Shown here piece after piece: positions 8,198 to 12,236 of a stretch of DNA of 64,000 nucleotides (position 1 is the first letter of the stretch; each line of letters begins with the position of its first letter). This DNA comes from Methanobacteriota archaeon (GTDB lineage Archaea > Halobacteriota > Methanomicrobia > Methanomicrobiales > Methanoculleaceae). The notes below the pieces were generated by a model, which saw nothing but the letters and a program-made list of their open reading frames with translations, had not been told where the DNA came from and searched no databases. A program made the position numbers and the translations under genes. The stretch is from positions 1-64,000 of the forward strand of contig JAENYE010000006.1 in NCBI GenBank assembly GCA_016841955.1, given 5' to 3'.

Positions 8198-8956
8198 ATG
8201 AGACAAGTCATCCTGATTGCGGCGGTTGTATCCCTGCTCCTCCTCGTCGGTTGCGCCAGCGCCGGCGACGTGGGCACTGCCGGGATGCGGAACGGAACGA
8301 CGGTGCAGATCGAGAGCGGTGGCCAGAGTTACCCGGCCTACATCGCAGCGCCCGGGGACGGCGGGCCGTATCCGGCCGTGGTGCTGATTCACTCCTTCAA
8401 CGGACTGGAGCCCGGTTACCGGGATCTGGTCGACCGCTTTGCCGGGGAGGGGTTCGTCGTCATCGCTCCCGAGTGGCAGACCTTTAACGAGTCACCGGAG
8501 GATGCCGTGATGGAGGGGCTGATCCGGGACACGGTCACGTATCTCGGGACCCGGCCCGACGTCAACGCAAGCAGCATCGGCCTGACGGGGTTCTGCGCGG
8601 GCGGACGCTACACGATGCTCTTCCTGCCGCAGATTGAGGAGTTCGACTCGGCTGTCGCCTGGTACGGCTTCCCCTACTCCGGCGGGCAGGCGAACGGGAC
8701 CGCCCCTGTAGAACTGATCGACAACATCACCGACCCGATGCTGATCATTCACGGCACGGCGGACGAGGCGAGCCCGGTGGTCGATATCTACCGGTATGCG
8801 ACTGCTCTCGATACGGCCGGGAAGTACTTCGAGCTCAAGGTCTACCAGGGCGAGCCGCACGGGTTCATGATCGAAGACGGGCAGCTCTCGGAGAGCCCTG
8901 TCGCAGAGAACGCCTACGGGGAGATGGTCACGTTCTTCAACCGGACGCTTGGGTGA
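8198..8956 (+). CDS. Secreted dienelactone hydrolase family protein
   Basis: A 252-residue alpha/beta hydrolase. The N-terminus (about 1-22, ending LLLLVGCAS) is a signal peptide with a lipobox-like Cys, so the protein is probably exported and possibly lipid-anchored. The nucleophile elbow reads GFCAGG, giving the Cys nucleophile typical of dienelactone hydrolases. HGTADE supplies the Asp region and GEPHGF the catalytic His. The natural substrate is unknown; family members cleave lactones or esters. The start at 8198 is preceded by the purine-rich ggagggagatcc, a good ribosome-binding site. Confidence 0.88.
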   Translation: MRQVILIAAVVSLLLLVGCASAGDVGTAGMRNGTTVQIESGGQSYPAYIAAPGDGGPYPAVVLIHSFNGLEPGYRDLVDRFAGEGFVVIAPEWQTFNESPEDAVMEGLIRDTVTYLGTRPDVNASSIGLTGFCAGGRYTMLFLPQIEEFDSAVAWYGFPYSGGQANGTAPVELIDNITDPMLIIHGTADEASPVVDIYRYATALDTAGKYFELKVYQGEPHGFMIEDGQLSESPVAENAYGEMVTFFNRTLG

Positions 8957-8980
8957 GACGCTATTTTACTGGACATTTCT

Positions 8981-9342
8981 CATTTTTTGGCTCTGTTGAA
9001 ACCCTATCCTGATCTTCATCCTTACCCTGATGAGGCTGGTGCCGGACTAGGCTTGTCCTTGGGACGACCTTTCTTCTCGGGCATGTCCTCATACAGTGGA
9101 CCGTGGTGGCTATCGCCATTGGGGGTGGGGCTGACGTGGAGGGGGAGACCCCCTCCCCTGTCTCTAACTCGCGAAAATCCGCATGCCTCATCGACCCCAC
9201 CCCACCCGGCCTCCGGCCTCCTCCCCCGCCCTAGGGGCGGGGGCAGTCATGGCGATACTTGGTAGAAAGCCGTGCCCCTGAGTACCCCCTGATTGTGGCC
9301 ATCTGGAACAAACAGGTGGGGTTTCAACAAAGCCCATTTTTC
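8981..9342. mobile_element. Small non-autonomous TIR element with 8-bp target duplication
   Basis: Terminal inverted repeats ggctctgttgaaaccc (8989-9004) and gggtttcaacaaagcc (9319-9334) match at 15 of 16 positions. They are flanked by catttttt (8981-8988) and catttttc (9335-9342), a likely 8-bp target duplication with one mismatch. The 346-bp interior has no full transposase. On the minus strand, codons reading PEKKGRPKDKPSPAP followed by a stop may be the tail of a lost transposase or other gene. TIR sequence and duplication size resemble the IS6-like group, an inference only. It also contains one copy of the hairpin repeat. Confidence 0.65.
9093..9265 (+). repeat. Hairpin repeat family, copy A
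   Basis: It starts with agtggaccgtgg and ctatcgcc, followed by a G-rich then C-rich stretch, and ends near atggcgatact. The start matches the other three copies at 30388, 33747 (reverse) and 36474. The interior folds on itself: gagggggagaccccctc near 9138 and gcccta ggggc near 9229. It is the most diverged copy and lies inside the TIR element. Confidence 0.6.
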
Positions 9343-9367
9343 AATAGATTGTATATTGTTATGGTGT

Positions 9368-9408
9368 CACAGGGAGCAACCTGCGATCTCTTGCTACTGT
9401 TGCCTGTG
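9368..9408 (-). terminator. Hairpin downstream of the retron RT gene
   Basis: The arms cacagg (9368-9373) and cctgtg (9403-9408), extended inside by gcaac (9376-9380) and gttgc (9399-9403), form a bulged hairpin about 40 bases past the RT stop codon. It could end the retron transcript or stabilise its 3' end. No oligo-T run follows directly on the minus strand. Confidence 0.35.
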
Positions 9409-9446
9409 GCAGAAATGTCTATTGTAAATGTTATTATTGGAGTTCC

Positions 9447-11171
9447 TTAATCTTCTTTGCCCCCAGCCCCTACTTTGCCTGGTTGAGCTTCAATGATGAG
9501 ACTGTTCGCGTCAAGTGAATCTGCAACCTGCTGCATCCCATGAGTTTTTTTGCGAAAATTCGAATAAATTCTCATGAAGTCTCTTTGTGTTATGAAACAG
9601 TAGCACTTTTTAGATTGACATTCGTGTATAGCAGTATTAAGACGTGAACGTAGTCCAACATCGATATCTGAAGTAGTGACGGTTGTAACCACATTTATTC
9701 CACTACTATGGCAGACATCAAAGAATTGTCGGAAGTATGTGTCTTTTTGGGTTCTAGCTTCCAGTTTGGTTTTTATTATAAAGCAAACATGACACCCGCT
9801 TTTTCCTAATATTGTTTCATTGATACCTATATCACACACCTCGTGACCGTGATGGGTGCCACCTGTTTTACCAATATAATGGCCCAAAATAAATTTGATG
9901 CATTTATTATAATTCGGATCATCTTTCCTGAACAAACAGACTTTGCATTCTTCATTTGTAGGATGCTGTTTACACTTTTCTTGTAATGTGGTAAGATCTT
10001 CAAGGGAAAATTGTTCCATGGATAGAGGAGGGATGTCTCTGAACGAGCTCAATTTTTCAAATGGAAGTATTCTATTAACAAATGGACTTCTCGATAACGA
10101 TCTGATGTTAGTTTCGGTTTCTTTTAAGTTTCTAATGTTATTATCATACTCTGACCAGTCGATAGAGTGAAAGGCTTCTTTCAAAGTGTTTCCAAATTCG
10201 GGTTCTACATTAATTACATACGATATATACCCCAATAATCTTTCTTTAAAGAAGGGATCATTGATTCTGTTTTCTTTTACTGGCCCATTCTTCTTGATGT
10301 TATATAATATTGCTCGAAGTTTTCGTTTCTTATCTTTCCCTACGCTAAGATGTGAATTAACAACAATACCTGTAACCTTTTGGCAAGAACCTTGTGATAA
10401 CACTCGGGTTTTCTCTGGGTTCACCTCAAACCCATGTTGGGTGATTTTTTTAATTATAATGTTTTTGTATTTGGGCAATCTATTACTCCCCGATATGGTT
10501 ATATCATCCGCGTATCGAGAGTAATCCAAATTTCTTGCCTTACAAAATTTGGCAATTTTTTGATCCATTTGCCAAGCGATTAAATTAGATAGCATAGGGC
10601 TGGTAGGCGCACCCTGCGTTAACCTCATTCGGTAAGTACAGAGTTCTGCTAAATCTAGAGAAATTTGCTCATTATACCCCAACGAGTGAAAATAACCTTT
10701 AACTCGATTTAATTTTATACTTGGAAAAAAGTCCTTCAAGTCGATGCACAAGATACACTCTTTATTGATATGATTGGCTGCATTAGTGACTATAGATCGA
10801 TTAGGTACAAATCCATGTGCATATTTCCCTGCGTTCAGTTGTACCAATATATTTTTGTGAATCCATCTTTGGACTTTCTTTAAAGGTTTCGATGGAGCAT
10901 CAATTCTTCTAAGCTTACCGTTCTTTTTAGGAATCTCAAACGAGGAGTAAGCGCTTTTTTTATTCCTAATGAAAAATCTCAGTTGACTAGATGATGCTCC
11001 ACACAACTCGGATAGATGAATCAGATCAAAAATATAAGGAAGATCTTTACGTTTCAACCGCTTAAGGGCCTGAGTTTCGGTATCAATTACTTCTTCGTAA
11101 TTTATATCGTCCCTTTGCTTAAGATAGTCAACCAACTGAGAATGGTTGTAAATACTGCAGGCTTGCTCCAT
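9447..11171 (-). CDS. Retron reverse transcriptase with Cys-rich C-terminal domain
   Basis: A 574-residue protein. Residues about 75-330 are a reverse transcriptase: RT1 around GKLRRIDAP, CIDLKDFFPSI with the first catalytic Asp (144), QGAPTSP (186-192) and YADD (220-223). The two retron hallmarks are present: NAxxH as NAANH (130-134) and VTG (266-268). Residues about 390-574 form an extra domain with clustered cysteines (400, 409, 412, 424, 446, 460, 463) and a stretch VCDIGIN...CFIIKTK that could be a restriction-endonuclease-like core; this is inference. It would copy the RNA encoded just upstream into msDNA, probably for phage defence, with the C-terminal domain as likely effector since no separate accessory gene is adjacent. 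The gene is AT-rich against GC-rich neighbours, pointing to transfer. Confidence 0.9.
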   Translation of the reverse strand: MEQACSIYNHSQLVDYLKQRDDINYEEVIDTETQALKRLKRKDLPYIFDLIHLSELCGASSSQLRFFIRNKKSAYSSFEIPKKNGKLRRIDAPSKPLKKVQRWIHKNILVQLNAGKYAHGFVPNRSIVTNAANHINKECILCIDLKDFFPSIKLNRVKGYFHSLGYNEQISLDLAELCTYRMRLTQGAPTSPMLSNLIAWQMDQKIAKFCKARNLDYSRYADDITISGSNRLPKYKNIIIKKITQHGFEVNPEKTRVLSQGSCQKVTGIVVNSHLSVGKDKKRKLRAILYNIKKNGPVKENRINDPFFKERLLGYISYVINVEPEFGNTLKEAFHSIDWSEYDNNIRNLKETETNIRSLSRSPFVNRILPFEKLSSFRDIPPLSMEQFSLEDLTTLQEKCKQHPTNEECKVCLFRKDDPNYNKCIKFILGHYIGKTGGTHHGHEVCDIGINETILGKSGCHVCFIIKTKLEARTQKDTYFRQFFDVCHSSGINVVTTVTTSDIDVGLRSRLNTAIHECQSKKCYCFITQRDFMRIYSNFRKKTHGMQQVADSLDANSLIIEAQPGKVGAGGKED

Positions 11172-11180
11172 GGTATCAGA

Positions 11181-11343
11181 AAATTGGAGTCCCCCTTGCT
11201 AAACGTGAAGCGTTTTCACAGCGCACGCGTGCGCTGCGGAAAGGGTTCATGTTTACATTTGCCTACTATTACATTTGCACAGCGTAGCACCGCACATCTA
11301 TTGGTTTGGGCCAATAGCATTAAATCCAAGGGTGACTCCATTT
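11181..11343 (-). ncRNA. Retron msr-msd non-coding RNA
   Basis: About 163 bases directly before the RT start. The ends form the a1/a2 pair expected for a retron: on the plus strand aaattggagtcccccttg (11181-11198) and caagggtgactccattt (11327-11343) are inverted once transcribed, reading a1 AAATGGAGTCACCCTTG and a2 CAAGGGGGACTCCAATTT. Inside are a perfect 7-bp hairpin (11298-11317, ctattgg/ccaatag), fitting an msr stem-loop, and near the 3' end a 16-bp palindrome (11219-11234) plus a small gtgaa/ttcac hairpin, fitting an msd. The branching G would follow a1. Exact RNA and DNA ends are not determinable by eye. Confidence 0.75.
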
Positions 11344-11361: not shown

Positions 11362-11372
11362 CTAAATATATG
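11362..11372 (-). promoter_or_regulatory. TATA box of the retron
   Basis: The minus strand reads catatatttag, centred about 25 bases before 11343, the first base of the a1 repeat. Box and RNA start match the archaeal TATA-to-start distance, so the RNA and the RT are probably one transcript beginning at a1. Confidence 0.6.
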
Positions 11373-11465: not shown

Positions 11466-12236
11466 CTATGGTAAATGCACCTTATTACTCCGGCTGATCT
11501 TCTTCATCACCTTCTCCCAGGAACCCGTTATGAGGAAACTCTCCTCCATAAAGCCGATAACCCTCTCGAACTTCTTCATGGGGAAGGCCATCGTCAGGAC
11601 GTCCAGAGGGACGCATGGCCGTGCCGAGGGGTCGAACATCCCGAGCACCGCTTTCGGGTTCTCGTTCTGCTGCTCGAGCCAGGGGAAGTAAAAGACCGAG
11701 CTGCACCCGGCACCGAACGGGCAGACGACACCGTTCGGGTCGGCCTGGTCGAAGTTTGCAAGCGTGAAGAGGCCGGAGAGCACTTCGGGCCGGGCGAAGA
11801 AGACCACGGCGTCAGGGTTATCTCTGTCCGTGAGATGGTCCCAGCGCTTGAAGACGATGCTCTTTCCCTTCGTGGGTATCCGGGCGGTTCCTTGGTCGAG
11901 TTCGTCCACGATCTCCGGCGTCTGCTTGTAGCGCTCCCCCTCCATGACTCCGGGCTTCCCGTAGGAGAGGAAGTAGCGGAAGTCGGGGAACCGTTCGGCG
12001 TCGTAGCCGAGGTAGAACCTCCCCCCGCGGCACCCGATCGAGTCCTCGTCGAAGACGAGGCTCGCCCCTTTCCTCACCTTCACGAGGTCGCAGACGAAGC
12101 ACCTCCAGCCCTTCGGGGCGGGAGCTTTCTCCACCCCAACGGTCGCGCCCCCGACCTCGAAGGCGATCGGGAGTTCCGTCCCCGGGAAGTACTTCTCATG
12201 GAGCCGGATGTAGGCGTCGCGCAGTGCTGTGTCCAT
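11466..12236 (-). CDS. DUF169 family protein
   Basis: A 256-residue soluble protein of the DUF169 family common in methanogens. Typical features are the Cys-rich first half (WRCFVCDLV, SIGCRGGRFYLGY), a central RPEVLSGLFTLANFD, and the GCSSVFYFPW segment. Biochemical function is not established. It ends just upstream of the AT-rich retron island in the same direction, so the island boundary lies at about 11440-11466. A second, diverged DUF169 gene is at 62655. Start at the ATG at 12236. Confidence 0.85.
   Translation of the reverse strand: MDTALRDAYIRLHEKYFPGTELPIAFEVGGATVGVEKAPAPKGWRCFVCDLVKVRKGASLVFDEDSIGCRGGRFYLGYDAERFPDFRYFLSYGKPGVMEGERYKQTPEIVDELDQGTARIPTKGKSIVFKRWDHLTDRDNPDAVVFFARPEVLSGLFTLANFDQADPNGVVCPFGAGCSSVFYFPWLEQQNENPKAVLGMFDPSARPCVPLDVLTMAFPMKKFERVIGFMEESFLITGSWEKVMKKISRSNKVHLP

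Follow-up and report, generated by a model that had tools for sequence, protein, structure and literature searches.

The general plan of Retron-Eco1 (Ec86) comprises the a1/a2 repeats, a priming G, msr hairpins, and an msd hairpin, and this plan is shared with the locus described here. The Ec86 effector is a separate, ribosyltransferase-type protein (PMC12948488), and type III-A retrons comprise a PRTase plus a DNA-binding protein (PMC12548924). Fused effectors are found in about a third of surveyed retron RTs, and Retron-Eco2 (Ec67), of type I-C, is an RT-Toprim fusion; by itself the fused Toprim domain is toxic, and the complex keeps it in check (PMC12405507). The accessible literature presents retrons as chiefly bacterial and covers archaea solely through RT sequences. 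Methanosarcina acetivorans was reported to have a putative retron RT as early as 2003 (Rest and Mindell 2003, cited in PMC6868368), so that archaeal retron RTs as such are not new; in the accessible part of this literature, the M. acetivorans case consists of the RT, and its RNA, covariation, and C-terminal domain are not described. The same literature, with Mestre 2020 and Khan 2024 lying outside it, describes neither an archaeal msr-msd with covariation nor a retron with a four-Cys H-x-G-x-E-x2-D...K...Q domain.

The 64,000-nucleotide stretch of DNA analyzed here (the window), from a methanogenic archaeon of the Methanomicrobiales, contains what we consider, with a probability of roughly 0.9, to be a complete retron with a TATA-driven RNA, an RT, an msDNA, and a fused effector. 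The features that carry this reading are legible in the DNA itself, namely the RT family, the RNA architecture, covariation, the promoter position, a modular C-terminus, and deletion scars in sister species. The RT gene (9447–11171, minus strand) encodes 574 aa, of which aa 1–345 (10137–11171, minus strand) form a retron RT domain with matches in PADLOC, NCBIfam, Pfam (RVT_1), and the PDB. The NCBIfam model retron_St85_RT scores 267 bits (cutoff, 235); the best PADLOC model is RT_III-A (5e-105), with RT_XIII close (8e-101), and the Ec86 RT is the closest solved structure by sequence (2e-67). The RT motifs comprise NAxxH (region X) at 130, YADD at 220, and VTG (region Y) at 266. With these motifs, an a1/a2-bounded msr-msd upstream of the RT, and a conserved G after a1, the locus falls within the retron class on every sequence feature testable in this analysis. 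The retron interval has ~37% GC compared with 60–65% in the host, no second such gene occurs among 40 genomes of the family, and no separate effector gene was detected with Pfam among the neighbors tested.

The initial annotation, made from the window alone, had proposed an msr-msd RNA bounded by near-perfect inverted repeats, with an inner 7-bp hairpin as an msr stem and a TATA box about 25 bases before a1. The repeats are confirmed, with 15 of 17 bases complementary between a1 (AAATGGAGTCACCCTTG; 11327–11343, minus strand), which forms the 5' end of the msr, and a2 (CAAGGGGGACTCCAATT; 11182–11198, minus strand), which forms the 3' end of the retron RNA, 9 nt upstream of the RT gene start (counted from 11181). 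When the 64-kb window was scanned for 17-nt arms forming 15 or more Watson–Crick pairs over a span of 100–220, a1/a2 was the single pair returned. Under a first-order Markov null, such pairs number 1.7 on average in 64 kb and 0.05 in the local 2.1 kb, and the probability of one in the 300 nt upstream of the RT is P = 0.001; thus, a1/a2 is unremarkable for the window and remarkable at its position. A claim based on the repeat alone was ruled out, since such pairs are not rare per 64 kb, and the case for the RNA is one of position and structure, not of the repeat by itself. The expected count of about 1.7 is also what would favor a chance inverted repeat beside an RT that uses no msr-msd, e.g., a DRT/UG-type RT. 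That explanation is nevertheless extremely improbable, given that retron-specific RT models match, that the VTG and NAxxH motifs are present, and that the repeats covary and are conserved in 11 loci, as described below.

Folding of the a1-to-a2 RNA, a check suggested in the initial annotation, gave z = −3.07, with 1 of 200 shuffles as good. The inner 7-bp hairpin (CTATTGG/CCAATAG) is msr stem-loop 1 (11298–11317, minus strand); it folds in the window, and across the loci 6 of its 8 pairs are changed on both sides, which supports its assignment as an msr stem. Stem-loop 2 (TGTGYGGTG...CAYGCA; 11276–11296, minus strand) is the most conserved element, its sequence and structure being kept in 11 loci. 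The small stem-loop 3 (ATG-TAAA-CAT; 11249–11258, minus strand) is weak in the window, and its counterpart in the relatives, helix 4, covaries. The long msd hairpin (11200–11255, minus strand), with 28-nt arms that are 82% complementary, is the template of the predicted msDNA, whose strand also forms a hairpin with 28-nt arms (z = −4.97). A terminal msd hairpin, AAACG...CGTTT (11201–11215, minus strand), adjoins a2 and corresponds to AAARCG..CGYTTT in the relatives (helix 5, with covarying pairs); in the window, the long msd hairpin competes with both stem-loop 3 and this terminal hairpin. The branching G that the initial annotation had suggested looking for just after a1 is found at 11326 (minus strand), directly 3' of the a1/a2 stem, and is predicted, by analogy with known retrons, to act as the 2'-OH primer. 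An Rfam scan of the window matched 0 families.

Ten related loci emerged from whole-genome and contig searches, each of them in a methanogen-type archaeon. One (L002) belongs to the same order as the window (Methanomicrobiales), L003–L008 and L010 to one other family, L090 to the Methanosarcinales archaeon METP1, and L088 to a Methanosarcina MAG with a broken RT frame. The last (L088:3835-5510, plus strand) has a perfect 18-bp a1/a2 and several breaks in the RT frame, which may reflect either a recent pseudogene or assembly errors. In an RT tree from which L088 was left out and in which viral-contig retron RTs and the archaeal L009 RT were included, the window RT and those of nine relatives formed one methanogen clade (support 100/99), with the viral-contig and L009 RTs outside it. 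The retron-like L009 RT (L009:2-2009, minus strand) is preceded by a gene of 299 aa with no Pfam match, whose product might, as a guess from its sequence, be an NDT-like retron effector. A scan of viral contigs with a single protein yielded nothing.

The same RNA lies upstream of the RT at all ten related loci, which, with the adjacent retron RT, supports the msr-msd reading. In the 11-locus alignment, the named structure has 38 pairs in 5 helices, with 93.9% of cells paired and 20 pairs changed on both sides. Its covariation score is 0.357, whereas shuffles give 0.187 and none of 500 reaches the observed value, and when the partners were slid by 1–3 columns as a control, pairing fell to 37–55%. 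The a1/a2 stem, with 96.7% of cells paired, has both-side changes at 8 of 11 pairs; thus, the lack of covariation in related loci that the initial annotation had regarded as telling against the RNA is not observed. RNAalifold alone gives 18 of 32 pairs doubly changed. G 11326 is invariant across the 11 loci, as is much of stem-loop 2. With a covariance model, the window RNA reaches 99.7 bits, below the 155.5 bits of a Methanosarcina member (L103), and there are 0 matches among 75 distant viral-contig retron loci. The model also recovered two msr-msd copies in one Methanosarcina-family genome (L105:1501-1677 and L107:1501-1664, both minus strand; 79 and 50.5 bits), with a decayed a2 and no RT remnant nearby, which may be either orphan relics or trans-acting copies. 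A weak match of 20 bits (L106) was judged spurious because of its poor pairing and the absence of an RT.

The TATA-like box CATATATT (11365–11372, minus strand) has its center 25 nt upstream of where a1 begins (11343), at the distance that had been proposed. TATA-like 8-mers lie 23–28 nt upstream of the first paired a1 base in 11 of 11 loci, and their summed score peaks within this zone and exceeds those of all 2000 shuffles, a count to be taken as descriptive because the scoring scheme was set after inspection of the loci.

In most sister species, the flanking hydrolase and DUF169 genes are directly joined, with junctions near 8927–8957 and 11470–11497. Three sisters (L110, L111, and L121) differ in that position 9347 of the window is joined to 11312–11317 at a shared CAATAG, which occurs in the window as a left copy (9342–9347, plus strand) and as a right copy inside msr stem-loop 1 (11312–11317, plus strand). 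These sisters are without 1964 bp (9348–11311), including the msd, a2, and the RT, and still have the promoter region together with a1 and one half of stem-loop 1; their a1 matches the a2 complement at 12–13 of 17 positions versus 15 in the window, and the TATA box is broken in all three. The junction is best read as a deletion scar with an eroding a1 and TATA box, since every relative has a1 as a component of its retron. We considered and set aside the reading that the 1964 bp were inserted with duplication of a 6-bp target, in which a1 and the promoter would be host sequence; it would explain why CAATAG occurs once in the sisters and twice in the window, flanking the interval, but the insert would have to supply an a2 able to pair with an a1 already present in the host, a1 and the promoter belong to the retron in every relative, and in about fifteen further sisters the junction is another one, near 11470–11497, and a1 is absent. 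An insertion is therefore very unlikely. The retron adjoins a MITE-like element of 346 bp (window 8989–9334) that is bounded by 16-bp terminal inverted repeats (GGCTCTGTTGAAACCC) and has many copies across the genus.

The deletion scars also bear on whether the window holds a retron by descent that is itself decaying, with an RNA and RT no longer functional together. Its occurrence in one copy across 35 species of the genus, the three sister scars, the orphan or broken Methanosarcina relatives (L105, L107, and L088), and the two a1/a2 mismatches in the window would all fit such a state. Decay is nonetheless improbable here, as the RT frame is intact with all catalytic motifs and the C-terminal motif residues kept, and a1/a2, both msr hairpins, the priming G, and the TATA box are preserved, whereas the true scars have lost pairing and TATA.

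The C-terminal extension (9447–10136, minus strand) contains a putative effector domain that is conserved in the methanogen relatives. Its conserved core (9537–10010) contains four Cys followed by H-x-G-x-E-x2-D...K...Q; comparison with Pfam, PADLOC, NCBIfam, and PDB sequences gave no credible match, and alignments against viral contigs gave 0 relatives. The domain is common to seven intact members and an eighth, frame-broken one. A nested sub-branch (L007, L008, and L010) carries an unrelated C-terminal domain on the same RNA and RT, and profile comparison of the two types gave a probability of 0.3 on a scale of 100. The replaced C-terminus of L007:892-2607 (minus strand) and L008:1396-3111 (plus strand) has a PD-(D/E)XK-like look (GKLDF...AEFKLA...QLPLYL). 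The third member, in the Methanosarcinaceae family (L010:1435-3981, plus strand), has a degraded PD-(D/E)XK-like site followed by a nitrilase-like domain at aa 576–844 (PADLOC CARF_m7--CARF_nitrilase, 1.9e-91), an apparent retron–nitrilase fusion. Such swapping of one slot on a constant RNA–RT core is the pattern that would be expected of an effector, and the C-terminal domain of the window is probably one. It may be a nuclease of the PD-(D/E)XK-like kind: the E, D, K, and Q residues are invariant, and the acidic residue before X-K is absent, the residue two before the Lys being hydrophobic where E/D is usual in PD-(D/E)XK. Since the AlphaFold2 models of the domain are unreliable (pLDDT 40 and 41 in two runs), the nuclease reading is a motif-based one. 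A stand-alone Methanosarcina protein of 473 aa (L133:1285-2703, minus strand) has a C-terminal domain that is a distant homologue (~20% identity) and keeps the four Cys and the H-x-G-x-E-x2-D...K...Q residues; it adjoins a small putative nucleotidyltransferase (weak Polbeta match), and the pair is possibly another conflict system.

Alternatively, the domain might be a nucleic-acid-binding or dimerization module rather than a toxic effector, with the effector located elsewhere. The cysteines are zinc-finger-like, no catalytic family is recognized, and the structure is not predictable, all of which suits a module of this kind. We consider this possible but doubtful, because the slot is exchanged for unrelated domains, one PD-(D/E)XK-like by motif and one of the CARF–nitrilase kind, as effectors are, because the distant homologue forms the C-terminus of a separate protein whose neighbor is a putative nucleotidyltransferase, and because no partner gene was found among the neighbors tested.

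With the C-terminal domain taken as a fused effector, the following mechanism is proposed, in which transcription, the priming G, the msDNA, the effector chemistry, and the role in defense are what we infer. The TATA promoter would start the RNA at about a1; the RNA would fold via the a1/a2 stem and the two msr hairpins, and the RT would bind the hairpins. Priming from the 2'-OH of G 11326, the RT would copy the msd hairpin into a branched DNA–RNA of roughly 60 nt. The effector would reside in the same polypeptide as the zinc-binding-like C-terminal domain with H-x-G-x-E-x2-D...K...Q, possibly a PD-(D/E)XK-like nuclease, and the RNA/DNA hybrid probably keeps this domain inactive, a restraint modeled on that of Toprim-fused retrons. 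The hybrid is probably used in virus defense: damage to it by a virus would free the domain and stop the cell, as in the RT-fused Retron-Eco2.

A covariation-backed msr-msd with a TATA promoter makes archaeal msDNA and immunity directly testable. The easiest test host would be M. acetivorans, which is a tractable archaeon and whose putative retron RT is probably the relative L004. The effector swap on a constant RNA–RT core is a natural experiment in the control of the effector by the hybrid, and the sister scars reveal what erodes once partner parts are lost.

Among described systems, type III-A provides the best-scoring RT model, RT_III-A (5e-105), with RT_XIII nearly equal (8e-101), and likewise has its msr-msd upstream of the RT. 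However, membership fails on the PRTase partner: the window has neither a PRTase nor a DNA-binding partner among the neighbors tested by Pfam, and carries a fused C-terminal domain instead. Retron-Eco2 (Ec67) is alike as a working model, with RT and effector in one polypeptide and an RNA/DNA self-inhibitor, whereas no model gives a Toprim match in the window C-terminus, and the PADLOC I-C models score lower and align over the RT. RT-TIR (type XII) and RT-protease (type XI) are also single-gene retrons with fused C-terminal effectors, but their RT models score lower, and no TIR or protease match is present in the window. Retron-Eco1 (Ec86), the closest solved RT (2e-67), differs in its separate effector and bacterial promoter, in contrast to the fused domain and TATA-like box of the window. 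It is fairly likely that the locus represents a methanogen-specific retron type outside the present ones and thereby an archaeal branch of retron immunity, with a III-A-like RT and an interchangeable C-terminal effector in a single gene and a TATA-driven msr-msd, and we hold with similar confidence that its interchangeable effectors would comprise the four-Cys H-x-G-x-E-x2-D...K...Q, PD-(D/E)XK-like, and CARF–nitrilase-like domains.
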